The notes under the pieces were generated by a model. It did not search any database and was not told the DNA's origin. It saw only the letters and a list, made by a program, of their open reading frames with translations. A DNA stretch of 63,809 nt, taken from the NCBI RefSeq assembly GCF_011839805.1, contig NZ_VWPY01000022.1, forward strand, positions 1-63,809, in the 5' to 3' direction. The translations under genes and the position numbers were made by a program. This document shows positions 6,648 through 63,702 of the stretch, piece after piece (position 1 is the first letter of the stretch; every line of letters starts with the position of its first letter). Source of the stretch: Kineococcus rubinsiae. Its GTDB lineage: Bacteria > Actinomycetota > Actinomycetes > Actinomycetales > Kineococcaceae.

Positions 6648-6804
6648 GACGCCGAGCCTCTGCCACAGCAGCCGGGACCCTGAGCACGGGTGGCAGAGGG
6701 CGGGGGAACCACTTTTTCGGGCGCTACGACGCGTCCTTGGGGTCAAGCTCACACGTGAGCCGGGTGCACCTTCCATCCGAACCCGACAGCTCACCTCGTA
6801 GGCG
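6648..6804 (+). promoter_or_regulatory. Cyclic di-AMP riboswitch (ydaO-yuaA type)
   Basis: Matches the ydaO aptamer in order: a GCCGAG 5' strand, a P-stem made by CCTCTGCCAC (6656-6665) and GTGGCAGAGG, the conserved GGGGGAACCA (6701-6710), TTGGGGTCAA, and the near-invariant 3' block CCGAACCCGACAGCTCACC with CTCGTAGGCG, whose GGCG closes the stem with 5' CGCC. It ends 17 bp before the NlpC/P60 start. Actinobacterial ydaO riboswitches typically control cell-wall hydrolases and act as off-switches on c-di-AMP binding, which fits this gene. Confidence 0.9.
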
Positions 6805-6821
6805 ATGAGAGGTCACTTCTC

Positions 6822-49516: not shown

Positions 49517-51325
49517 CTAGCGTTCCTGACCGCGGTCCGCGGACGGGTTGGTGTGCTGCTTGGCGCGCTGGTCGGCCAGCTTCGACGGAAGGGGCGAGCC
49601 GGGGCGTGGTGCCTGCGGGAAGGCCGCGTTCATCCGCTCCAGCATCTCCTTCACCTCCGCACTCACCGGCGGTTCAGCCGCGGGCTCGGGCTGGGCGTAG
49701 GACGCGGGCCGCTGCAACGTCGCGGTCGCCGTAGCCGGCCCGCTGCCCACCTCGGCGGCCCCACCCGCAGGCCGCGGTGCCGGGTGCTGCGTGACGCTGT
49801 GCGCGGCGCGGACGCGCATCAGCTGGGCCCGGGTCTCACCGGCCAGCAGCCGTGCTTGGTGGTGCTGCTCGCTGACCACCGCGTGGTCGTAGACGGCCTG
49901 GGTCAGGCGCAGCACGGAGCTGATCAGCGCGGCCTGCCCGATGGGTCCTTGACCGCCTCGGCTGACGCTGGCCGCGAGCATCGCCAGGCCGGTGATGGCG
50001 TGGGTGCCGGCCTTGGATGGGGGAGTGGTGCGCCGGTAGGTCTGCGCCGAACGGGACAGCGCCTCGGCGGCCGCGGCGAGGTCACCGGGCACCGCTTCGG
50101 TGGCCGTGGACCAGGCCGCCAACGCCCCCGCGGTCTGGCGCGCGACGGTCGCCCAGGTGTCGCGGTCCTGTACCGGAACCTCGCGCAGTCGGTCGACGAG
50201 CTCGCGCAGCTTGGCGTCCTGCTCGGCCCACTCCTGCGGGGTGACTTCGTGGGTCTCTCGGCCCGCTGCCACGACGCGGCGACCGCGCTTGGCGGCGGTC
50301 CATTCCGCGGCCGCGGCGCTGGCGCCGGTGGGGGTGTCTTCCCACTCACTGCGCAGCCGGGGAAGGGTCAGGTCGCGGCCCAGGTGACCGCCGCCGTACC
50401 AGATCGGGCGCTCACCGTGCTCGGGCCTGGCGGCCACGGAGTAGCCGGTGATGACGTCGGTGGTGCCCTCCGCGAAGCGTGCCCGCACGAGGAGCCCGGA
50501 GCGGCGCATTCGGCGCACGAACTCGGCCTCGTCGGCGGCCGCGGTCGCTGCCGCGCGCACCCGCAACGCCAGCGCTTCACGGGGCTGAGCGGCGCGCAGC
50601 TCAGCGGCGATCCGCTGCTGGCGCTGCGCACCACTGAGCTGCTCCCACGCCGGCACCGGTGCACCCACCGGCAGGCCCGGGACGACCGTCCCGGCCGCGC
50701 GCGTGGTGCGCAGGCGTTCGTGCTTGGCCTGCGCACGGGCGCGTGCCTGGGCCTCACGCTCGGCGGGCTTGAAGCCACGCGTGGAACGCTCGGCGGTGAC
50801 CGACTCCAGGCGCTGCAGCCCGTACTTCACCTCCAGCGCCCGCGAGGCGGTCTGGGCGCTCTTGAAGTCGTTGTGCACCGACGCCTTGGTGCCGTCCTCA
50901 CGGACCAGGTTCACCGCCAGGTGGACGTGGTCGTTGCCGTTGCCGGAGACCCCGTGGCGCACCGCTGCCCACCGGCACGCAGCCTTTGTGCCCTGGTGGT
51001 CATCGAAGCCCATCGCGGTGACGATGTCGCCGGCGATCTCGGCCCAGCGCTCGTCGCTGAGCATCCCTTCCTCAGCGCTCAGCGACAGCGAGCAGTGCCA
51101 CACGTGCCCGCCGGGAATCTCAACACCGAAGGCCTTGGCGGGCCGGTCCAGGTGACGGGCGATCGCCAGCGCGGAGTCGCGGTCCAGCTCGTTGTCGCCG
51201 TACCAAGTCAGCAACGCTTGGTCGCCCGCGACCAGGTGCGGTTCGGTGTGCTCGTTGGTCCGCCCGGGCCCGGCCAGGTACACCAGCAGACCGGCCATCC
51301 GGTCCCCGCGGACGACGTTCGGCAT
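49517..51325 (-). CDS. Relaxase / mobilisation nuclease (MOBP-like)
   Basis: 602 residues, expected to nick at oriT and lead the transferred strand. The N-terminal nuclease domain (about 1-190) begins MPNVVRGDRMAGLLVYLAGPGRTNEH with a candidate catalytic Tyr (Tyr16). It has the conserved VWHCSLSLS and the metal-binding HxH in GNGNDHVHLAVNLVREDG. A helical region follows (about 215-330, REALALRVRAAATAAADEAEFVRRMRRSGLLVRARF), then a Ser/Pro tail. ATG 51325 shares its A with the MobC-like stop. Co-operon with MobC-like protein is standard for such relaxases. Confidence 0.88.
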   Translation of the reverse strand: MPNVVRGDRMAGLLVYLAGPGRTNEHTEPHLVAGDQALLTWYGDNELDRDSALAIARHLDRPAKAFGVEIPGGHVWHCSLSLSAEEGMLSDERWAEIAGDIVTAMGFDDHQGTKAACRWAAVRHGVSGNGNDHVHLAVNLVREDGTKASVHNDFKSAQTASRALEVKYGLQRLESVTAERSTRGFKPAEREAQARARAQAKHERLRTTRAAGTVVPGLPVGAPVPAWEQLSGAQRQQRIAAELRAAQPREALALRVRAAATAAADEAEFVRRMRRSGLLVRARFAEGTTDVITGYSVAARPEHGERPIWYGGGHLGRDLTLPRLRSEWEDTPTGASAAAAEWTAAKRGRRVVAAGRETHEVTPQEWAEQDAKLRELVDRLREVPVQDRDTWATVARQTAGALAAWSTATEAVPGDLAAAAEALSRSAQTYRRTTPPSKAGTHAITGLAMLAASVSRGGQGPIGQAALISSVLRLTQAVYDHAVVSEQHHQARLLAGETRAQLMRVRAAHSVTQHPAPRPAGGAAEVGSGPATATATLQRPASYAQPEPAAEPPVSAEVKEMLERMNAAFPQAPRPGSPLPSKLADQRAKQHTNPSADRGQER

Positions 51326-51897
51326 CACCGCCGAGACACCCCACTCCCCGGTGCCCCAGTAGACGGCAGAGTGACCGGTGCCGGCGTGGCCGGGATGCCG
51401 CTGAGCGCGTCCACCGTCGCGTCGATCCGCTCCGCGGTACGGCGCACCGCGCGAAGCGTCGCCGCCAGGTCCTCGCCCATCTCGCCGGTGGCGTTGGTGG
51501 CCCGCGCGATCTGGTTGACGTTGTTCGAGATCGCCGCCAGCAGGCGGTGCACCGCGAACAGCTCAGCCAACGCGTTGCGCCGCTCCGTGGGGGTCTCCGA
51601 GGTCTGCGCCGACAGCGCCGACTCCACCAGCAGGCGAGGGATCGTCACCCGCTGCGCCAACGCCAACCGCGCCAGCGTCCCCTCCTCCTCCGGCGTCACC
51701 TTCACCTTGTGGAAGTACTGACGCCCACCCGCCGCGTTTGCCCGCCGCCGGCGCGCGAACAACCGGCCCCCCGGCCCAGAAGCAGGACCCGGTGCTGACC
51801 CGACCTCGGGGGCAGCGGGGGAGGCAGACGCAGGGGTGGATGCGGACGCAGACACCGACGCCTCCAGCGTGGTCTCAGCCTCCACAGACTCACCCAT
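51325..51897 (-). CDS. MobC-like relaxosome accessory protein
   Basis: 190 residues. Disordered N-terminus (1-50), then QYFHKVKVTPEEEGTLARLALAQRVTIPRLLVESALSA, the ribbon-helix-helix-like motif of MobC/BmpB-type accessory proteins. LFAVHRLLAAISNNVNQIARATNATGE is the hallmark NxxNxxNxxA-like helix of MobC. It helps the relaxase open DNA at the nick site. The oriT candidate lies just upstream of its start. Confidence 0.87.
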   Translation of the reverse strand: MGESVEAETTLEASVSASASTPASASPAAPEVGSAPGPASGPGGRLFARRRRANAAGGRQYFHKVKVTPEEEGTLARLALAQRVTIPRLLVESALSAQTSETPTERRNALAELFAVHRLLAAISNNVNQIARATNATGEMGEDLAATLRAVRRTAERIDATVDALSGIPATPAPVTLPSTGAPGSGVSRR

Positions 51898-51958
51898 GCC
51901 CTGCCCCTCTCCGGCCCAGCGCAGCGACCCCGCCCACGGGGATCACACGACCAGTGTG

Positions 51959-52085
51959 CCCTCTCACCGACCGCAGGTCGAGAGGGACAGGCCATTTAGG
52001 GAACCTAAATGTATAGCTTGCTCCGCCCGGGGCTCCGGTCACTCGTCTCACCGCGACAGCGGGGAGACTCGCGGCAAAGCCGCGA
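51959..52085. other. Origin-of-transfer (oriT) candidate
   Basis: Four inverted repeats packed into 127 bp between the divergent MobC-like gene and the 52150 gene: CCCTCTC..GACC/GGTC..GAGAGGG (51959-51986), CATTTAGG-GAA-CCTAAATG (51993-52011), GTCTCACCGC/GCGGGGAGAC (52045-52068, one mismatch) and TCGCGGC-AAA-GCCGCGA (52069-52085). Such dyads next to mobC-relaxase genes mark oriT. The nick base cannot be told. Confidence 0.7.
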
Positions 52086-52512: not shown

Positions 52513-52696
52513 GTCCGTGGTGGAACATCACCTCGCGGCGGCGTCAGCGCGCCTTCCGGCGGCACCAACCGCGGCTGGACCCCGCGACAGGAAGCCGCCG
52601 CGTGCCCTCGACGACCTGGAGCACGCCGCGCCAGAGGCGACCGCACACGACACCATCGACCTGGCTCGCTGGGTCGGCGGTGGCGATGCTTCGTGA
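52505..52696 (+). CDS. 63-residue overlapping small protein
   Basis: GTG at 52505 overlaps the previous stop by 8 bp, and its TGA overlaps the next gene's GTG by 4 bp. This tight coupling on both sides is the main evidence that it is translated. Residues VEHHLAAASARLPAAPTAAG, a basic stretch, then LDDLEHAAPEATAHDTIDLARWVGGG. No family recognised. Confidence 0.45.
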   Translation: MPESVVEHHLAAASARLPAAPTAAGPRDRKPPRALDDLEHAAPEATAHDTIDLARWVGGGDAS

Positions 52697-53850
52697 GCCC
52701 CCAGGAGCGTCCCGTGGAACGGCTGGACGGCGACACCTTCGTTGCCGATCTGCCCGGTCAGATCGGCTACCAGCCGGCGCCTGGCGCGGTCGTCGTCAGC
52801 GCGTTCAGCGCCTCCCACCGCTTCCAGTTCAACGCCGTCGTCGACCTCCCCGAAGGCGGCGACCGCACGGCCCTGCTTCAGGACGTCGCCGCTCAGCTTC
52901 GGCGGCCCCAGCGTGAGTACGAGACCGCGATGATCGTGCTCACCGGCTACGGCCCAGCAGGCGACGTCAACGCCGCGCAGCTGCGCACCGCGCTGACCGA
53001 CGGGCCCACCCACGTGTTCTACCTGGCGCACATCGAAGGCACCCGCGTACGGACCCTCGCCCACGACGACGTGGCGTGGTCGAGCTCGCGGCAGCTGCCC
53101 GACACGGCGGCGCGCACCGTGCTGCGCGAGCGCGCCACACCCGCGGCCAACCGTGAAGAGTTCAGTGCCCGCTACGCACCCCTGACCACGGCCACCTTCA
53201 CCGCGCTACGGCCCGACCAGGCCGACGCCATCGGCGTGCACGCCAGGCCGTCGCTGCGCGCCGACGTCGCCGCTCGCTACCTCGACCAACTCGCGCAAGC
53301 GCGCGGTAGCGACCCTGCCAAGCAGGCCGTCCTCGCCCACCTGGTCACCGTCGACCTGACCACCCGTGACGCGGTCCTCGTCGCTGCGGCCACCGACAGC
53401 GCACGGGTCACCGCACTCATCGACGTCTACCGCGGCGCGCCCCCTGAGCTACGACCGGCGTGCGCTAGCGCCGCGGCCGCGGCCATGTTCATGGACGGCG
53501 CCCCTCTCAGCGCCGTCAGCTCCGTCCTCGCCCACGCCGACCGCACCGGGCCGAACGCGTCACTGACCGGACTGGTCGAAGCCGCCGCGCACGCCGGCCT
53601 CAACGGCCACCAACTGCGCGCCGCCGTCACCGCCGACTTCACCGACACGCTGCGCGTCGCCGACGAACGCTGGACCGTCGCCGACATCGCGCGGACCTCC
53701 GCAGCCGCCTTCCCCAGCGCAACCTCGCGCTCTACCCAGTCACGCTCAAGCGCAGACGCGGCCAGCGAGCAGACCCGCCAGACCGGGCCGTCGCCACGCC
53801 CCACATTCCCCACCGCCAGCCCTACTGACAAGCCTCCGCTTGAGCGTTGA
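52693..53850 (+). CDS. DUF4192-family protein
   Basis: 385 residues. The N-terminal half follows the DUF4192 pattern: DGDTFVADLPGQIGYQPAPGAVVVSAFSA, TAMIVLTGYGPAGDVNAAQLRTAL and HVFYLAHIEGTRVRTLAHDDVAW. The helical C-terminal half has AAAAAMFMDGAPLSAVSSVLAHADRTGPNASL, as usual in this actinobacterial family. Function unknown. It is fused to a Ser/Thr/Pro tail of about 45 residues. GTG 52693 overlaps the upstream stop, and a strong terminator follows. Confidence 0.78.
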   Translation: MSPQERPVERLDGDTFVADLPGQIGYQPAPGAVVVSAFSASHRFQFNAVVDLPEGGDRTALLQDVAAQLRRPQREYETAMIVLTGYGPAGDVNAAQLRTALTDGPTHVFYLAHIEGTRVRTLAHDDVAWSSSRQLPDTAARTVLRERATPAANREEFSARYAPLTTATFTALRPDQADAIGVHARPSLRADVAARYLDQLAQARGSDPAKQAVLAHLVTVDLTTRDAVLVAAATDSARVTALIDVYRGAPPELRPACASAAAAAMFMDGAPLSAVSSVLAHADRTGPNASLTGLVEAAAHAGLNGHQLRAAVTADFTDTLRVADERWTVADIARTSAAAFPSATSRSTQSRSSADAASEQTRQTGPSPRPTFPTASPTDKPPLER

Positions 53851-56076: not shown

Positions 56077-57411
56077 TTAGGCCGTTGCGCTGTTGGTGCG
56101 GTGGTCCAGCAGTTCGTCCACCACGCACCCCGCGTCGGCGCCGGTAGCCACGGCCACTGCGGCCAGGCACTGGCCCATGTCGAGGTCGTCATGGACGGGG
56201 TCGATGAGGCGGACGGCGGCGCGCACCGCGTTCAGCTGGCTGGTGTCTTCGTGCAGCCGCCCGGTCCAGGGGGTGACGGCGTCGCGGATGAGGCTCAAGA
56301 CCAGGGGCGTGTGCTGGACGTGCTCGAGCAGCTCGGCCAGCTGGGTGCGGGGCAGGCTCGCCGGGTCGCCCCCTTCGGGCAGGGTGACCTCCAGCAGCCG
56401 CAGGCCGCGGGCGGTGGCGAGCTCGAAGGCCCGTCGAGCAGCGCCGCGCCCTGCCTTGTCGCAGTCGAAGGCGACGGCCAGGCCCCGACGGCCCAGGCCG
56501 CTGGTGCCCAGGCTGGTGTCGTGACCCTGGCCCGTGGTGTTCACCTGGAGGACGTCGTGGAGGAGGTCGAGGTGCTCGCTGGTCAGTGCGGTGCCGCAGC
56601 TGGCGATCCCGACGTAGCTCCCGGCGCCGGCGAGGGTGATGGCCAGGGCGTCGGTGGGACCTTCCACCAGGACCGGCAGGGCACCGGCGCCCAGCAGCCG
56701 GCGGACCTGCGGGGTGAGGCCGTAGAGGACCTCACGCTTGCGGTACAGGGCGGTCTCGCAGGTGTTGAGGTACTTGGGCAGGTCGTGCCCAGCTGCGGCG
56801 GCCGCGGCGCGGTCCTCGTCGAAGGCGCGGGCGGTGAAGCCGACGACGTCGCCGGCGGCGTCGTGGACGGCGAAGGTGATGCGGGCGCGGAAGCGGTCGA
56901 TGAGGTGGGTGGTGCGGCTGCGGACACTCACCCCGGCGGCGAGCAGGTGCTCGTCGGTGTAGCCCAGGCCCTGCAGGTGGGTGGTCAGTGCGGTCCAGCC
57001 CTCGGGGGCGTAGCCGATGCCGTCGGCGGCGGTGAGGATCGGCAGGCGGCGGGCGGCCAGCGCACGCCGTGTGCGACGGCCCGCGGTGGGCTCAACCAAG
57101 CAGGCGCGGAAGAAGGTGGCGGCGTCGGCCGCGACGGCGCGCAGCACTGCCAGCTCGTCCACGGTCTCCTCCACGACATCGGTCTCGGTCATGTCCTGCT
57201 CCACGGTGGAGGGATCTTCCTGGAGGAACTGCACGGGGATGAGTCCGTTGGCCGCGGCGCGGTCGCACGCCTGCTGCAGAGCTCTGCTGATGAGGCGGTT
57301 CCTGCACTCGGTGCCACCGCGGCGGACGGCCGTAGCCGCACCCCGTGCGTTCGAGCGCGACGCGGGCTGGATCTTGAGCCAGACGCTGCGGTGGGTGGGG
57401 GTGGCGGTCAT
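56077..57411 (-). CDS. DnaG-like primase core without zinc finger
   Basis: 444 residues. The catalytic core of bacterial primase is present: RFRARITFAVHDAAGDVVGFTARAFDED (about 173-200), PKYLNTCETALYRKREVLYGL (212-232), then the Toprim domain with LVEGPTDALAITLAG (Glu250) and GLAVAFDCDKAGRGAARRAF (DxD). The usual N-terminal CHC2 zinc finger is replaced by a basic segment (1-60), and there is no helicase domain. It probably makes primers for plasmid or transferred single-strand DNA. ATG 57411 follows GAGGAGG; a longer open frame to 57546 is discarded. Confidence 0.87.
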   Translation of the reverse strand: MTATPTHRSVWLKIQPASRSNARGAATAVRRGGTECRNRLISRALQQACDRAAANGLIPVQFLQEDPSTVEQDMTETDVVEETVDELAVLRAVAADAATFFRACLVEPTAGRRTRRALAARRLPILTAADGIGYAPEGWTALTTHLQGLGYTDEHLLAAGVSVRSRTTHLIDRFRARITFAVHDAAGDVVGFTARAFDEDRAAAAAAGHDLPKYLNTCETALYRKREVLYGLTPQVRRLLGAGALPVLVEGPTDALAITLAGAGSYVGIASCGTALTSEHLDLLHDVLQVNTTGQGHDTSLGTSGLGRRGLAVAFDCDKAGRGAARRAFELATARGLRLLEVTLPEGGDPASLPRTQLAELLEHVQHTPLVLSLIRDAVTPWTGRLHEDTSQLNAVRAAVRLIDPVHDDLDMGQCLAAVAVATGADAGCVVDELLDHRTNSATA

Positions 57412-57579
57412 GGCGGGTGTCCTCCTCGATGACTGTTGGCTGCTGTGGGCTGCTGGCTTCAGAACCAGTGAGTGAAGCTGGGCGTGAGGGCGATGTCGAC
57501 GGTTCCCGTGAGTGCGTCGATCACGGGATGAACCCGATTTAGACACCCCAAGGGCTTCATCGACCCCTGTCCTATTCTA

Positions 57580-57644: not shown

Positions 57645-57938
57645 TCAAGCAGGAGTGGTTGCGTCAGCCAGGACGCGCAGTCGGTCGGGGCGAAACCCAC
57701 TCCAGTGCTGCTGCTCGGTCGTGGAGGTTTCCTCGTGCGGCTGGTGGCCGGCCGGGGCGTCGGTCACCACGACGACGGGGGCCTGGCTGTAGCCCAGTTC
57801 CTGCGTCACGCAGTCGTGTGCTCGGGTGTCGGTGCGGATGTCCACGACCTCGAACGTCACCCCGGCCTGCTTCAGGACGTCGACGCTCAGACGGCACCGG
57901 ATGCAGGTGGGACCACTGCTGTAGACGGTGATGCTCAT
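57645..57938 (-). CDS. NrdH/glutaredoxin-like redoxin
   Basis: 97 residues. MSITVYSSGPTCIRCRLSVDVLKQAGVTFEVVDIRTD: thioredoxin fold with a CxxC redox motif (CIRC, 12-15), then the cis-Pro motif SQAPVVVV (51-58) and a His-rich C-terminal tail. NrdH-type redoxins donate electrons to ribonucleotide reductase; the motif CIRC differs from the usual CVQC/CMQC of NrdH. GGAAGGGAA precedes ATG 57938. It lies immediately downstream of structured element A. Confidence 0.82.
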   Translation of the reverse strand: MSITVYSSGPTCIRCRLSVDVLKQAGVTFEVVDIRTDTRAHDCVTQELGYSQAPVVVVTDAPAGHQPHEETSTTEQQHWSGFRPDRLRVLADATTPA

Positions 57939-58029
57939 GACGGGTTCCCTTCCTAGGGTTACTGAAACGGCGGATAGGTGAGACGGAGAGGAAACGGTGG
58001 TCGGCGCCAACTGCGCCCGCCGACCAACT

Positions 58030-58424
58030 CCCTCCCCCTCCCGGCGTAGTTCCACGCGGCCGCTGTAGAGCGCGACGGTGTCACCCGTAGGGCGCGGGCT
58101 AGCCCGCGAGTCGAGGTCGCCGGCGAAGAGCGAACGATCTTGGGTCGCTCGCGTCTTCAGCGACGAGGGACGAGGAGCAGCGAGGGGACGAAGATGGTTC
58201 GGCGCAGCGGGTCGAGCGCAGCTCGCCTCGGCTTGGCTCCGTCGTGCGAGCGGCCACGATGGAACGCCGGGAGGGGAAGGGATGCAAACAGGGACACCGG
58301 CCCGAAGGGCCGACCGACCGGGCGAGGCACGAGCCCGGCCAGCACCGCAGGTGCGCCGGGAAGACGCAGGAGGGCTGGGCTGGGGGGAGCGCGAGGGGGC
58401 GCGCAGCGACACCCCCTCGCACCG
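58030..58424 (+). ncRNA. Structured intergenic element, copy A
   Basis: First of six related 0.29-0.39 kb elements. Read on the plus strand it has: CGCGGG-CTAG-CCCGCG (58093-58108); an outer pair GTCGAGG/CCTCGGC enclosing a long hairpin with CGATCTT and AAGATGG arms; GGCCC-GAA-GGGCC; GCACC-GCA-GGTGC; and the terminal GCGAGGGGG/CCCCCTCGC hairpin with 12-nt loop. It lies between the 58535 gene and NrdH. Triloops of GNA type on the plus strand point to that strand, but transcription is unproven. Confidence 0.6.
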
Positions 58425-58534
58425 GTAGCAGCGCCGGCCCGCAGGGCTGTCGGCACCCGCGACGTGCGCGGCGCGGAGCCGCCTACACCCGGTGACAGCA
58501 CCGCATGACGGACACCGGGTGCAGGCGTCTGCTC

Positions 58535-58750
58535 CTACAAGATGTCGAACAGCTTCGTCTGAGCGGGGTCGACGTCGAGGTCGGTGACGCTGAACTTGCG
58601 ACCCTGGCTGCGCAACCGTGCTGCGACCCGCTGTGCGGCCTTCTTGTCCAGTCCCTCGTAGAACTCACCCGCCTTCCCACTTCGGTAGTCGTCTGGGTCG
58701 CCGGGCACCGCCAAGGCGTAGATGTTGTAGCGGGGCACACCTCTGGCCAT
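58535..58750 (-). CDS. Small hypothetical protein
   Basis: 71 residues: MARGVPRYNIYALAVPGDPDDYRSGKAGEFYEGLDKKAAQRVAARLRSQGRKFSVTDLDVD. Mixed alpha/beta, basic helix in the middle; no known motif. ATG 58750 follows GGAG by 8 bp; the frame is open to 58783 but that start lacks an RBS. It follows the 58841-59503 gene by 90 bp and lies upstream of element A. Confidence 0.65.
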   Translation of the reverse strand: MARGVPRYNIYALAVPGDPDDYRSGKAGEFYEGLDKKAAQRVAARLRSQGRKFSVTDLDVDPAQTKLFDIL

Positions 58751-58840
58751 CGCAGGTCTCCTTCGCTGGGGTCGGGGTGGCACCAGGCAATGCCGCCTCC
58801 TAACCGCCGCGCGTGCGGCGGCCGGGCCCGTGAGTAGGTC

Positions 58841-59503
58841 TCAGGCGCGCAAGAGGTCACGCAGGAAGTCCGCCCCCTCGGGGAGGAAGATCAGGTGCTC
58901 GCTCATGCTGCGGTGCGCGAACCCCCCGGCGGCGTTGACCGTGGCGGGGTCGTTGACGTTGCCGACGCACAGGGTGAGGGTGCGCGGGCGCCGGCAGTCG
59001 GCGTAGCTGACGCTGAGGTGGACGCAGTCGTGGGGGAGGACGTCCATGCCGGGGGCGATGTTCGGGGCGAACGCGAACTCGGCGGTTCCGGCCACGCGCA
59101 GCAGCTGGAGGATGGTGTCGGTGTGGACGCCCAGCGCGCCGTCGAAGACGGGCAGGGTGACCAGGACGTGCACGTCGGGTTCACCGTCGGTGTAGGTCAC
59201 CCCGGGTAGACGGTCCTCCGGCTGCTCGTCCTGGCCGGTGCCGTCGTAGGTGTCGGGGCGCAGGAAGTAGCAGGACCGGTCGATGAGGTTGAGCGCCTCG
59301 ATGGGGTCCATGACCCGGCGGGCGGTGCCGACCTGGGCGTAGAAGCCGAACGGCTCCTTGTTGTTGCTGGTGAGCTCATCGACCGCGTTCCACCACTGCT
59401 CGGCGGCACCGGTGTGGGAGTCGATGCCGATGACGTGGGCGGTGCTCATGGTGTCGAGGTTGTTCAGCGCGATGTAGCTGCTGTACTCGGCGTCCTCGGG
59501 CAT
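58841..59503 (-). CDS. Hypothetical protein, unrecognised
   Basis: 220 residues, acidic. No signal, helix or catalytic motif stands out. It contains IGIDSHTGAAEQWWNAVDELTSNNKEPFGFYAQVG, DPIEALNLIDRSCYFLRPD and FAFAPNIAPGMDVLPHDCVHLSVSYADCRRPRTLTL. Probably a soluble alpha/beta protein. GGAAGG before ATG 59503 supports the start. Sits between element B (upstream) and the 58750 gene. Confidence 0.72.
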   Translation of the reverse strand: MPEDAEYSSYIALNNLDTMSTAHVIGIDSHTGAAEQWWNAVDELTSNNKEPFGFYAQVGTARRVMDPIEALNLIDRSCYFLRPDTYDGTGQDEQPEDRLPGVTYTDGEPDVHVLVTLPVFDGALGVHTDTILQLLRVAGTAEFAFAPNIAPGMDVLPHDCVHLSVSYADCRRPRTLTLCVGNVNDPATVNAAGGFAHRSMSEHLIFLPEGADFLRDLLRA

Positions 59504-59588
59504 GGTGGGTCCTTCCGTGGGTGTGTGAACAGGTGGCCGGTGCGGGGACGTGAGCTCTCGACGGCTGTCGCCGCCGACCGCTCACCGC

Positions 59589-59970
59589 CCCCTCCCGGCA
59601 AGTCACCTCGAGACCGACGTGAGGGGCTGTGACACCCGAAGGGCGCGGGCTCGCCCGCGAGTCCAGGTCTGCCCCGAAGCGCGAACGATCTTGGGCCGGT
59701 CGCGCTTTTCGCGACGAGGCACGAGGAGCAGCGACCGGCCCAAGATGGTTCTCGCGTAGCCGGTCGAGCGCAGCGAGCCTGGACTTGGCTCAGCACCGGG
59801 GTCGGTCACGATGAGACGCCGGGAGGGGCAGGAGCGAACAACGCCGGCCCGAAGGGCCGACCACCGCGAGGCACGAGCGCCAGCACCGCAGGGGCGCCGG
59901 CCTGGCGACGAAGGAGCGGCCGGGCTGGGGGGAGCGCGAGGGGGCGCGCAGCGACACCCCCTCGCACCGG
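59589..59970 (+). ncRNA. Structured intergenic element, copy B
   Basis: Nearly identical to copy D over its first about 280 bp. Outer pair GTCCAGG/CCTGGAC; hairpin CGATCTTGGGCCGGTCGC pairing with GCGACCGGCCCAAGATGG (one mismatch); CGCGGG-CTCG-CCCGCG; GGCCC-GAA-GGGCC; terminal GCGAGGGGG/CCCCCTCGC. It precedes the 59503 gene on the opposite strand. Confidence 0.6.
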
Positions 59971-59975
59971 ACGGA

Positions 59976-60264
59976 GACCCGACCGGGTGGCATCACGCCC
60001 GGGCCGCGGCGGGCGGGGGAGACACCCGCAGGGCGAGGGCGCAGCCCGAGAACCGGGAAGGCGAAGCCCGAGCGGCAGCGAGCCGGTTTGTCACCCCCAC
60101 CCACCACGGCCACGATGACCGCCCGAGGAGCGGTCACCGGCCCGCAACCAACACCGCCGCCGCGAAGCGGCGCCCGCCCCCTGCGACGAAGGAGCAGGGC
60201 ACCAGCTGGGGGGAGCGCGAGGGGGCGCGCAGCGACACCCCCTCGCACCCGGTCGCCGGCCCGC
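59976..60264 (+). ncRNA. Structured intergenic element, short variant copy C
   Basis: 289-bp variant lacking the long P3 hairpin but keeping ACCCG-GNA hairpins (GGGC-GCA-GCCC; GCCGC-GAA-GCGGC), CACGATGA, GACCGC..GCGGTC, CCCTGC..GCAGGG and the terminal GCGAGGGGG/CCCCCTCGC hairpin. About five substitutions separate it from copy F. Confidence 0.6.
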
Positions 60265-60400
60265 GGGGCCGCCCGCCACCCGCGCCAGCGCCAGCGCCAG
60301 CGCCAGCGCGGTAGTAGGTGGCACCCTTCGCCCTGAGCAAGCGCGCCGGCGGGTGTCGGCGGCACCCCGGGCGTGTAGGGGGTGCCGCCGCGGTGTGCCG

Positions 60401-61447
60401 TCAGGCGGTGAGGATGCGGTCCAGGGTGGTAAGGGTGGTGCGGTCGAGGTCGTCGACGCCGCCGGTGATGGCGCGCTGCATGTTGCGCTCGGCGCGGCCT
60501 GCGCCGCGGACGGTCTGCTCGTGGTGGACGTAGGTGTTCACGGCTTGCACCACGCCCCAGGCGGTGCGGGCCCACGGGGACACGCGGGCGTCGTGGTTCC
60601 AGAGTCGGCGCAGCGCGTCCTGCTTGGTGACGGCGAGGGTCTGGGCGCGGCCGGGCCTGGAGGGGATGGGTGCGGTGGCGGCCAGGAAGGCGCTCCACTG
60701 GGCGTCGGTGACGCTCTGCTCGCACAGGGCCTGGACTTCGGCGGTGAAGTTGTCCGCGGTAATCTCCAGTAGACCCAGCGCGTCGCGGGCGTCCTCTAGG
60801 CGCATCTGGGAGTAGCGCGAGTGCTTGACCTTGTACTGCGGGCCCCGCTCGCGCAGAGCGGTGCTCATGGTGTTGTCGCAGACCACGTTGGTGGCGACCA
60901 TCTTGTAGGTGGTGGCCAGGCTCCCGTCGTGGCTGGTCGCGGCGAGCAGGTTGGGGCGGAACTCCACCCCCTGCCGGGTGGTCAGGTTCTCCGGTGCCTC
61001 CACCGACACCCATGCCACCGCGCCCCGGCGCAGTACCCCGGCCGATCCGATGGTGATGGTGTCGCTGAGCAGCGGCGACACGCTTTCCACCAGCCACTCC
61101 CCGAACTGGTGGATGGTGTAGCCGTCGGTGAACAGCCCGAACACGTCGCCGGTGCGGCTGTGGGTGATGGCCTGGCGGTCGTTGACCTGCGCGTAGCGGA
61201 TCGGGGCGCCGTCGGGGCCGATTGCGTCGGCGGTGATCAGGTCGGTGGGCAGCGCGACGTAGACCGGCCTGGCCTCGGCGGTGAAGTCGAACAGTCGGCG
61301 GGTGACGTCGGCGACGGGGATGGCGCCCGGGTAGTGGTTGGACTGCTCGCCCTGGTCCTCCTGGCGGTAGTGCCAGGCGTGGCCGCGCTTGTCGGTGAAA
61401 CCGATCAGCGTGGACGTGTTCAGGATGGCGAGGGTTTCACGGGACAT
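60401..61447 (-). CDS. DUF932 family protein
   Basis: 348 residues. Typical of phage/plasmid DUF932 proteins: IGFTDKRGHAWHYRQEDQ near the N-terminus, then GDVFGLFTDGYTIHQFGEWLVESVSPLL, RRGAVAWVSVEAPENLTTRQGVEFRPNLLAATSHDGSLATTYKMVATNVVCDNTMSTAL (about 130-210), and RLEDARDALGLLEI. Found on plasmids and phages; function unknown, sometimes thought to act on DNA. ATG 61447 is preceded by AGGAACACC. It is bounded on both sides by structured elements (C/B on the left, D on the right). Confidence 0.83.
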   Translation of the reverse strand: MSRETLAILNTSTLIGFTDKRGHAWHYRQEDQGEQSNHYPGAIPVADVTRRLFDFTAEARPVYVALPTDLITADAIGPDGAPIRYAQVNDRQAITHSRTGDVFGLFTDGYTIHQFGEWLVESVSPLLSDTITIGSAGVLRRGAVAWVSVEAPENLTTRQGVEFRPNLLAATSHDGSLATTYKMVATNVVCDNTMSTALRERGPQYKVKHSRYSQMRLEDARDALGLLEITADNFTAEVQALCEQSVTDAQWSAFLAATAPIPSRPGRAQTLAVTKQDALRRLWNHDARVSPWARTAWGVVQAVNTYVHHEQTVRGAGRAERNMQRAITGGVDDLDRTTLTTLDRILTA

Positions 61448-61531
61448 CTGGTGTTCCTCCGTCTGACTGTGCGGGTGGGTGGGCCGGAGCGAGGACGTGA
61501 GCACCCGACGGCTGCGCCGCCGACCGCTCAC

Positions 61532-61910
61532 CGCCCCCTCCCGGCAAGTCACCTCGAGACCGACGTGAGGGGCTGTGCCACCCGAAGGGCGCGGGCTCGC
61601 CCGCGAGTCCAGGTCTGCCCCGAAGCGCGAACGATCTTGGGCCGGTCGCGTCTTTGCGACGAGGCACGAGGAGCAGCGCCCGGACCAAGATGGTTCACGC
61701 GTAGCCGGTCGAGCGCAGCGAGCCTGGACTTGGCTCAGCACCGGGGTCGGTCACGATGAGACGCCGGGAGGGGCAGGAGCGAACAACGCCGGCCCGAAGG
61801 GCCGACTACCCGGGCGAGGCACGAGCCCGGCCAGCACCGCAGGTGCGCCACTCCGAAGGAGTGGGCTAGGGGGAGCGCGAGGGGGCGCGCAGCGACACCC
61901 CCTCGCACGT
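61532..61910 (+). ncRNA. Structured intergenic element, copy D
   Basis: Same architecture as B, with outer pair GTCCAGG/CCTGGAC and an added CCACTCC-GAA-GGAGTGG hairpin near 61856. The long hairpin carries two internal mismatches compared with B, so not every change is compensated. It ends at the GCGAGGGGG/CCCCCTCGC stem and lies upstream of the DUF932 gene. Confidence 0.6.
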
Positions 61911-61991
61911 CCGCCAGGACCAGGACAGCAACCGACCGGGCTGGAGCCCCCGGCCGCTCCGTCGTGTGGTGTGGGCGGTCGGGGGGTCGGG

Positions 61992-62342
61992 TCAGCCCCA
62001 GCAGACTTCTACGGCGCTGGGGATCGTGACGTGGCCGTTGCAGTCCGTGCACTCGAAGTGGTCGGTGGTGTAGTTGTGGTCGTCTTCGGAGACGCCGACG
62101 GACAGGTCTTCGCTGTGACCGTCGAGGCCGTAGTCAAGGTCCACGAGGGTGTTGTACGGGGTGGAACGGTCAACTTCGGCGAGGGTGTCGATGGCTGCAC
62201 AGTGCGGGCACTGCAGGTGCGGGGAGTCGGTCTGCTCTTCCGCCTGAACAAGGGTGGCCTCTCGCACGTCGGGGGCCGTGGTGATGATGAGGCCCACATG
62301 GGCGGCGATCGTGTCGAGGACGACGCGGATGACGGGGTTCAC
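61992..62342 (-). CDS. Zinc-ribbon hypothetical protein
   Basis: 116 residues: NPVIRVVLDTIAAHVGLIITTAPDVREATL, then LQCPHCAAIDTLAEVDRST and FECTDCNGHVTIPS, two CxxC pairs about 50 residues apart forming a split zinc ribbon. Acidic elsewhere. GTG 62342 follows GAGAGGAG by 6 bp, which decides the start. A strong terminator lies between it and the frameshifted gene upstream. Function unknown. Confidence 0.72.
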   Translation of the reverse strand: MNPVIRVVLDTIAAHVGLIITTAPDVREATLVQAEEQTDSPHLQCPHCAAIDTLAEVDRSTPYNTLVDLDYGLDGHSEDLSVGVSEDDHNYTTDHFECTDCNGHVTIPSAVEVCWG

Positions 62343-62396
62343 GTGGTGCTCCTCTCGGGACGGATTGCTGGGGGGTCGGGGTGCGGTGCGCCTGAG

Positions 62397-62425
62397 TGGT
62401 CGGCGGCGGTATCCGCCGCCGACCA
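62397..62425 (-). terminator. Hairpin between the last two leftward genes
   Basis: Perfect 13-bp stem TGGTCGGCGGCGG with CCGCCGCCGACCA around TAT, 8 bp beyond the proposed stop of the frameshifted gene. Its position supports a stop at 62434. Confidence 0.8.
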
Positions 62426-62433
62426 CCGGTGGT

Positions 62434-62914
62434 TCAGCTGGGCTGCAGGGTGGTGGGGTCGAGGATCTGCAGCCGGGTGAGGGGGATGCCGCGCAGGTAG
62501 CGCCCGCTGTCGCCGCCGAGCTTGACCAGGCGGGCTTGGCGGTCGCGGACGCTGACGACCACGAAGCGCGTGCCTGCGGGGGTAGCTGTTGGGCCCGAGG
62601 ATGGTCACGACGGCACCGAAGTCGGGCTCGATGACGCTGTTGGCCGCGGCGGTCGCTCGTGCGGCTGCTGCGTCGCCGGTGTACGGCTTCCACAGCTGGG
62701 CCGGGCCGCGCAGGCCCTTGCTGCCGTCCAGCGGGGTGGCGACGTAGTTGCGTTCGCTGGATCGGCTGGGGCGCTTGGTGATCTCGTAGACCCGGTTGGT
62801 GTCGTGCTTGTCGCCGACGTAGTCGGGGTGCAGAGTCACCAGGTCGCCGATCTTGTGGTCGTCGGCGAACACGGGCAGGTCGACGATCTGGACCTGCGGG
62901 GTGAGGTCGGTCAT
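62434..62914 (-). pseudogene. Small gene with a one-base frameshift in a C5 run
   Basis: From ATG 62914 the frame encodes TPQVQIVDLPVFADDHKIGD, RPSRSSERNYVATPLDGSKG and ends sensibly at FGAVVTILGPNSYP. The natural continuation PAGTRFVVVSVRDRQARLVK, GGDSGRYLRGIPLTRLQILD is in another frame and stops at 62434 just before a terminator. Removing one C from the run at 62578-62582 joins them into a protein of about 159 residues. A true pseudogene, a sequencing error or programmed slippage are all possible. No family recognised. Confidence 0.7.
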
Positions 62915-63020
62915 GGTGTGGTTCCTTCCGTTGTGGCAGTGCTGGCACCGGGCGGTGCGAGCAGGTGACCTGGAGAGCGCGAGGTGGGGGTGCGGCGGCT
63001 GCGCCGCGACCGCTCACCGG

Positions 63021-63396
63021 CCCCTCCCGGCGAGGTCGATCAGGGCCGGGGCAAGCGCGACGTAAGGCACCCGTAGGGCGCGGCGTAGCCGCGAGCCGAG
63101 GTAGCCCCGCAGGGAAGACGATCTTGGTCGGGCCGCGTGGGGTGAGCGAGGGACGAGGGAGCAGCGGGGCGCCCAAGTTGGTCTGGACCGCAGGGGTCGA
63201 GCGCAGCGAGCTCGGCTTGCCGTGTCGCGTGCTCGGCCAGGATCGGACGCCGGGAGGGCAGGGCCACTGAGGCGCCGGCCCGAAGGGCCGACCGACCGGG
63301 CGAGGCACGAGCCCGGCCAGCACCGAAAGTGCGCCACTCCGAAGGAGTGGGCTGGGGGGAGCGCGAGGGGGCGCAGCGACACCCCCTCGCACGTCC
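63021..63396 (+). ncRNA. Structured intergenic element, copy E (most diverged)
   Basis: Keeps the layout with changed arms: CGCGGC-GTA-GCCGCG in place of CGCGGG-CTCG-CCCGCG, and GCCGAG/CTCGGC in place of GTCCAGG/CCTGGAC. It also has the CCACTCC-GAA-GGAGTGG hairpin and the terminal GCGAGGGGG/CCCCCTCGC stem, with a 10-nt loop. The GCACC-GCA-GGTGC hairpin is GCAC-CGAAA-GTGC here. Confidence 0.6.
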
Positions 63397-63413
63397 GCCA
63401 GGACCAGGACGGC

Positions 63414-63702
63414 GACCCGACCGGGTGGCATCACGCCCGGGCCGCGGCGGGCGGGGGAGACACCCGCAGGGCGAGGGCGCAGCCCGAGAACCGGGAAGGC
63501 GAAGCCCGAGCGGCAGCGAGCCGGTTTGTCACCCCCACCCACCACGGCCACGATGACCGCCCGAGGAGCGGTCACCGGCCCGCGACCAACACCGCGGCCG
63601 CGAAGCGGCGCCCGCTCCCTGCGACGAAGGAGCAGGGCAGCAGCTGGGGGGAGCGCGAGGGGGCGCGCAGCGACACCCCCTCGCACCCGGTCGCCGGCCC
63701 GC
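63414..63702 (+). ncRNA. Structured intergenic element, short variant copy F
   Basis: 289 bp, nearly identical to copy C with a handful of substitutions, one of which turns CCGCCGCCGCGAAGCGGC into GCGGCCGCGAAGCGGC at the GAA hairpin. The remaining 107 bp to the window end hold no recognised feature. Confidence 0.6.

Follow-up and report, generated by a model that had tools for sequence, protein, structure and literature searches.

The stretch of DNA analysed here (the window) is one entire contig (C34, 63,809 bases) of the 4.88 Mb genome of Kineococcus rubinsiae, and its right end carries six copies, A to F, of a structured intergenic element. As an earlier sequence-only reading had it, a repeat search returns six copies; however, they form two subtypes, and the tandem pairs B+C and E+F place them in four intergenic gaps. 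The long type (A, B, D, and E; outer limits set by hand from the sequence and the repeat search) measures about 400 nucleotides (nt). On the plus strand, A (58018–58430) has its core hairpin at 58035–58276 and the motif TTGGCT-16-CACGAT at 58233–58260. The same motif occurs at 59785–59812 in B (59569–59968; core hairpin 59589–59828) and at 61730–61757 in D (61515–61915; core hairpin 61535–61773), while E (63002–63406; core hairpin 63021–63259) carries TTGCCG-15-CAGGAT at 63217–63243. The short copies C (59969–60264) and F (63407–63702), also on the plus strand, are 98% identical to each other, lie directly beside B and E, and contain TTGTCA-17-CACGAT at 60088–60116 and 63526–63554, respectively. 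All six copies end on the right with the common GCGAGGGGG/CCCCCTCGC hairpin (repeat family D2) that had been noticed before.

On the plus strand, the 3' arm of the long copies holds an invariant TTG-N15/16-A..AT, which resembles the −35 and −10 elements of a sigma-70 promoter and is aimed at the next leftward gene. In the 14 of 14 aligned long copies, the spacer is 15–16 nt long and variable in sequence, with TTG and A..AT invariant; a set of 17 right arms drawn from five genomes shows no change in TTG, in the CGG that precedes the −10, or in A..AT, and the spacer sequence again varies. The 15–16 nt spacing is found in 19/19 copies, under a search pattern that admitted these two lengths only. 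Moreover, the two arms pair across the promoter, and the A at −11, which sigma must flip out, is unpaired in all 17 folded long copies, either in an isolated mismatch or within an AG/AG tandem mismatch. That two kinds of mismatch both free the same base is more telling than the unpaired state itself.

The predicted direction of reading agrees with the gene layout. On the minus strand, the glutaredoxin-like gene (57645–57938; Pfam Glutaredoxin, E 3.6e-8) starts 96 nt from the outer stem of A, a gene without a Pfam match (58841–59503) starts 85 nt from that of B, and the DUF932 gene (60401–61447) starts 87 nt from that of D. A second gene without a Pfam match (62339–62914, minus strand), which has relatives in K. 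indalonis and K. xinjiangensis, begins with an ATG roughly 106 nt away from the outer stem of E, a start placed by eye. Taking the related elements together, an open reading frame (ORF) of at least 75 aa with ATG or GTG starts 40–130 nt from the outer stem on the predicted side in 26 of 28 elements, and 24 of these 26 starts have a Shine-Dalgarno-like run. The two elements without a facing ORF are one cut by a contig end and one shortened K. indalonis copy. As the hexamers read rightward on the plus strand of duplex DNA, they might instead belong to a conventional double-stranded promoter directed rightward, and the complementarity of the left arm would then be incidental, a repeat or cruciform. 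On that side, 7/28 elements do have an ORF of at least 75 aa starting within 130 nt, but 26/28 face an ORF on the other side and the left arm covaries with the promoter arm; this explanation is highly improbable.

With DNA energies, the 14 aligned long copies each form a single imperfect hairpin that the CTCCCGGC/GCCGGGAG stem closes, and most have two side hairpins opposite the −35. A shuffle test that took in D and E gave z = −6.6 for the plus strand and −6.1 for the minus strand of D, and z = −3.5 for the plus strand of E, with 1 of 200 shuffles as good. Covariation was counted in 17 of the 19 located long copies, two (both L121) and two further matches without a left arm being dropped. Their 44 consensus pairs yield 730 cells, 91.8% of which are standard pairs, compared with 33.5–51.2% in a control in which the 3' partner was slid by 1–3 columns. 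Double-change cells number 47, whereas 200 arm swaps average 15.8 and never exceed 29; because these sequences, whose rows are related, also furnished the structure, this count is not a formal test. The compensated stems named in the sequence-only reading are present both in the sequence and in the pair table, and the covariation fits RNA and single-stranded DNA (ssDNA) alike.

Which strand enters the recipient can be predicted from the mobilization region to the left. A MobA/VirD2-like relaxase (49517–51328, minus strand; Pfam Relaxase PF03432, E 8.7e-13), whose relatives are typed as MOBP by MOB-suite, is followed by a MobC/NikA-like relaxosome protein gene (51325–51897, minus strand; E 2.9e-6). 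The block upstream of mobC is common to eight plasmids and ends in an inverted repeat and CATA(g/a)CTTGCTCC, with C or T as first base. In the window, this oriT (51915–52025, plus strand) comprises the inverted repeat CATTTAGGgaaCCTAAATG then TATAGCTTGC, and the repeat sits 5' of the nick-like motif on the plus strand. RP4-type oriT regions have the repeat directly adjoining the nick motif (C/T)ATCCTG(C/T) on its 5' side, and the 5' end remains bound by the relaxase (PMC3772185). The plus strand is thus the predicted transferred strand (T-strand), with a nick near 52020/52021 and rightward entry into the recipient; therefore, the leftward genes would have the T-strand as their template. A MOBQ-like nick motif was dropped, the relaxase relatives being typed MOBP and the motif fitting TATCCTGC at 6/8 by eye.

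Several features distinguish the two strands of the elements. The T-strand fold is more stable than its complement in 26/30 elements, and wobble cells on the plus strand comprise 16 GT and 2 AC. Perfect 4-bp hairpins with 3-nt loops on the plus strand of the six elements comprise 14 with GNA, none with TNC (GNA on the opposite strand), and 7 others, which bears out the GNA triloops described previously; the corresponding counts in window 1–57900 are 24, 23, and 408. Loops of d(GNA) are unusually stable in ssDNA. The covariation and the excess of GT over AC would suit equally well a structured plus-strand noncoding RNA, antisense to the genes, that forms the same hairpins, as the sequence-only reading had offered alongside ssDNA transfer hairpins. 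We consider the RNA unlikely: the region contains no match to an Rfam family at or above gathering score, and such an RNA leaves unexplained both the invariant TTG-N15/16-A..AT in the 3' arm and the T-strand orientation and position just upstream of genes. The other half of that proposal, ssDNA, is favored by the relaxase, MobC, and oriT orientation, the predicted T-strand, and the rebuilt −35 and −10. Alternatively, the elements could specify minus-strand leader RNAs of the leftward genes, that is, regulators in the 5' untranslated region or antitermination-like leaders made from a double-stranded promoter. Most elements do lie just upstream of a gene start, and the EGeRS1 repeats of pLS20 are structured repeats before establishment genes for which an ssDNA promoter is doubted (PMC8708921). 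However, the wobbles and GNA loops favor the plus strand, and the T-strand is described as non-template in pLS20 (PMC8708921) but is predicted to be template here, so that leader RNAs have a low probability.

To the 3' side of every promoter, in the right part of A–F (e.g., 61787–61915), a series of GNA-loop hairpins precedes the terminal hairpin. This series may block read-through, keep single-stranded DNA-binding protein (SSB) off, or act in priming. Several hairpins in A–F are closed by nine-base loops of the form GA(C/G)GNA(G/C)GA (GACGAAGGA, GAGGCACGA, GAGGAACGA; found by eye), which resemble tandem sheared GA pairs with a GNA triloop as cap, the inner pair swapping between C-G and G-C.

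The genes to the right of relaxase and mobC run leftward and include a DnaG/toprim primase-like gene of the leading region (56077–57546, minus strand; domain search), the glutaredoxin-like and DUF932 genes, and then a ParB-like gene on contig C84. This contig opens with the ParB-like gene, which has an element before it, and further elements come after. The final 659 bases of the window are 99.5% identical (3 mismatches) to the beginning of C84, which therefore probably follows the window. A coupling protein of a type IV secretion system is encoded on contig C54 of the same genome. In K. indalonis, the relaxase is likewise leftward, and to its right lie leftward DUF4192-like (its match falls short of the curated cut-off), DUF6573, primase, and ParB-like genes; the domain search gave no DUF932 match in this element, and a long ORF between two of its repeats runs rightward. 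The primase genes of the K. rubinsiae window and the K. indalonis element would suit single-strand initiation sites that mainly prime the second strand, with either RNA polymerase or the DnaG-like primase of the plasmid making the primer and gene expression as a lesser role. Going by the title of a 1997 paper by Masai and Arai (cited in PMC11541004), Frpo reportedly serves both transcription and primer synthesis. Nevertheless, priming would not call for a separate element at each gene or operon, every one of them directed at a start codon, and we regard a mainly priming role as improbable. Far to the left, at 6660–6816 (plus strand), a c-di-AMP riboswitch (ydaO/yuaA, 62.3 bits) lies 5' of a gene for a secreted NlpC/P60-like protein, named by eye.

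The promoters were also sought without reference to the elements. Every TTGNNN-N15..18-NANNNT was taken and scored by how well positions −35 to +14 pair with the 330 nt before them. On the plus strand of window 43001–63809, the six elements are the top 6 of 17 candidates (63.3–77.6; next 51.9), and the best of 10 candidates on the minus strand scores 51.8. In 30 replicates of a Markov null, 9/361 candidates score at least 60, with a maximum of 66.3; 13 candidates reach 63 in 120 replicates of the length of 43001–63809.

Related copies occur in the same genome and in neighboring genera. Within K. rubinsiae, more are present on contigs C54 and C84. Further short-type copies lie at L017 3281–3308 (TTGACG-16-CACGAT; scan score 71.8, −11 A paired) and L016 400–575 (TTGACG-16-CCCGAT). 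Contig C508 of K. indalonis has five copies with 73–82% identity over the matched parts, K. xinjiangensis has five profile matches on C25 and three on C20, and the Pseudokineococcus elements align with the long copies and fold as they do. One K. indalonis copy (L032 6390–6545) has lost the inner hairpin region and retained both promoter arms; this shortened copy marks the minimal core. The right-arm profile R1 matches strongly (E ≤ 1.2e-13) in 5/396 genomes of the order and, in a sample of 394 genomes of the class, in the own genome only; weaker matches in other genomes (E ≥ 7.8e-5) were taken as noise. At E ≤ 1e-5, BLAST of the region against plasmids returned only the DUF932 genes of three actinobacterial plasmids. 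Against phages it returned, among the matches listed, only hypothetical-protein genes over the same part of the query, and viral contigs gave no match.

Similar arrangements are found on plasmids that this search of the plasmid collection did not retrieve. The relaxase of Paraoerskovia sediminicola shares 67.9% identity over 80%, and three repeats of about 430 nt precede its ParB-like gene, DUF4192 gene, and a small gene; on the T-strand, each repeat carries TTGTGA-16-GAGGAT with an A.A mismatch at −11. In the stretches read of two Cellulosimicrobium plasmids, there are three elements each, with TTGCGC or TTGCGG-16-GATGAT and scores of 70–78. They lie before DUF4192, ParB, and DUF6573 genes, their −11 A is unpaired in the scan, and five of the six were folded in full. 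Elements of the two genera are about 71% identical. BLAST with a Cellulosimicrobium element found three plasmid records, no phage, and 5/297 genomes at E ≤ 1e-5, one of them strong; against the K. rubinsiae genome, in which two candidates were scored, it gave no match. GCA-loop hairpins resembling those of A–F lie on either side of the promoters in Paraoerskovia and Cellulosimicrobium. In these two genera and in Pseudokineococcus, DUF4192 genes come with an element of their own in the usual direction.

Collectively, the six elements are probably ssDNA promoters of the Frpo/ssi type, located in the leading region of an actinobacterial conjugative element. Their layout, fold, invariant hexamers, spacing, covariation, and strand bias, as well as the oriT layout, are read from the sequence; from these we infer the nicked strand, polymerase binding, transcription, its timing, and possible primer synthesis. 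The relaxase would nick oriT near 52020, and the plus strand would go into the recipient 5' end first. Each element on the entered strand would then fold back on itself; its 3' arm would provide the −35 (TTGGC/TTGCC) and −10 (CASGAT) of the non-template strand, opposite a template contributed by the 5' arm. The RNA polymerase of the host may bind, open the hairpin at the already unpaired −11 A, traverse the outer stem, and transcribe the next leftward gene before a second strand exists. Second-strand synthesis would remove the hairpin and thus turn the promoter off.

A number of observations weigh against single-stranded promoters of this kind. First, the nick motif is AGCTTG/AACTTG; because its core hexamer agrees with ATCCTG at 4/6 positions only, the strand assignment rests mainly on the oriT layout. 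A DUF4192 gene near oriT (52693–53850, plus strand) runs rightward, unlike the other leading genes. The −10 boxes match TATAAT at 3/6 positions by eye, and a standard promoter scan found none. An unpaired −11 A by itself is weak evidence because 552/1333 null hits with well paired promoters also show it. In the minimum free energy folds of C and F, the −35 and spacer pair with the left arm and the −10 does not; in the scan, the short-type copy of C84 has a paired −11 A, and the complement gives the better fold in C, F, and two Cellulosimicrobium copies. Additionally, the scan score alone is not decisive for a promoter because window 1–43000 gives hits of 65.3 and 68.5. The Pseudokineococcus elements are not top hits, and the Paraoerskovia scores (61–64) are not above the null maximum, with wrong-strand hits of 54–61 in the same repeats and one unrelated hit of 61.4. 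A further Cellulosimicrobium hit (72.5) lies within a gene and has its −11 A paired. No clear T-strand signal appeared in the leading region of 7/9 ParB-bearing stretches (L130–L132, L134–L137) or 5/6 relaxase-bearing stretches (L123, L124, L126–L128), and L127, L124, and L126 gave wrong-strand hits of 66.0, 69.4, and 72.1. Finally, the strict scan pattern missed two regions of the F plasmid, 89.6% identical and folding strongly, that were taken by their place for Frpo1 and Frpo2.

It is possible, and we suggest it only tentatively, that one or more actinobacterial lineages of single-stranded promoters extend across several plasmid families no longer linked by BLAST. Together with a site on the F plasmid, they may follow a common rule, in which a duplex that is near-perfect except at the −11 A makes a pre-melted promoter. 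The best T-strand scan site of F, TTGCAT-15-TAAGAT, lies upstream of an antirestriction gene, scores 85.8, and has −11 to −9 unpaired. If general, the unpaired −11 A could point to such promoters in cases that BLAST misses. The single-stranded promoters tested in the literature covered here are enterobacterial, one Gram-positive candidate is argued against by its authors, and none of the open-licence PMC papers listed by the searches, as judged by titles and abstract openings, describes an actinobacterial one. Six copies on one contig, a recognizable oriT, and a defined promoter make it testable how genes of Gram-positive conjugative elements are expressed ahead of second-strand synthesis.

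Among known systems, REP/BIME-type sequences are also intergenic repeated hairpins. Compared with these as generally described, the Kineococcus elements keep a single orientation with respect to genes and oriT, share a conserved promoter, and are limited to a mobile element. The EGeRS1 elements of the Gram-positive pLS20 family are closer, being repeated, relatively GC-rich, highly structured, and upstream of establishment genes; in contrast, they are longer (a 600-bp region is shown), the published account of the fold gives no promoter, and its authors think an ssDNA promoter highly unlikely (PMC8708921). Moreover, the transferred strand is the non-template strand in pLS20 (PMC8708921), whereas it is the template strand here, as predicted by the oriT layout only.

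The closest resemblance is to Frpo of the F plasmid and ssi of ColIb-P9, which are described as non-coding repeats that lie upstream of leading genes in the leading region and whose single strand forms a stem-loop that rebuilds the −35 and −10 (PMC9849209, PMC11541004). Frpo homologues are reported in 6,006/21,907 elements, with 7,751 and 950 additional weaker candidates and none similar in a Streptococcus pneumoniae island; the term 'actinobacteri' is absent from the main text of that paper (PMC11541004). The Kineococcus elements differ in being GC-rich, with many GNA hairpins, in an actinobacterial host, and the relaxase relatives are MOBP, compared with MOBF for F. BLAST at E ≤ 1e-5 gave no match to enterobacterial plasmids, a search that did not include direct comparison with the published Frpo/ssi sequences. 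On the other hand, both leading regions include DUF932 and a ParB-family gene, with SSB in F as well. The Kineococcus elements likewise lie in the leading region upstream of leading genes, their template strand is the predicted T-strand, by the oriT layout only, and in the predicted folds the ssDNA of the long copies rebuilds the −35 and −10 in duplex form. Collectively, apart from sequence similarity, the anatomy fits a Frpo-type promoter on the features tested, and a corresponding function may be expected.

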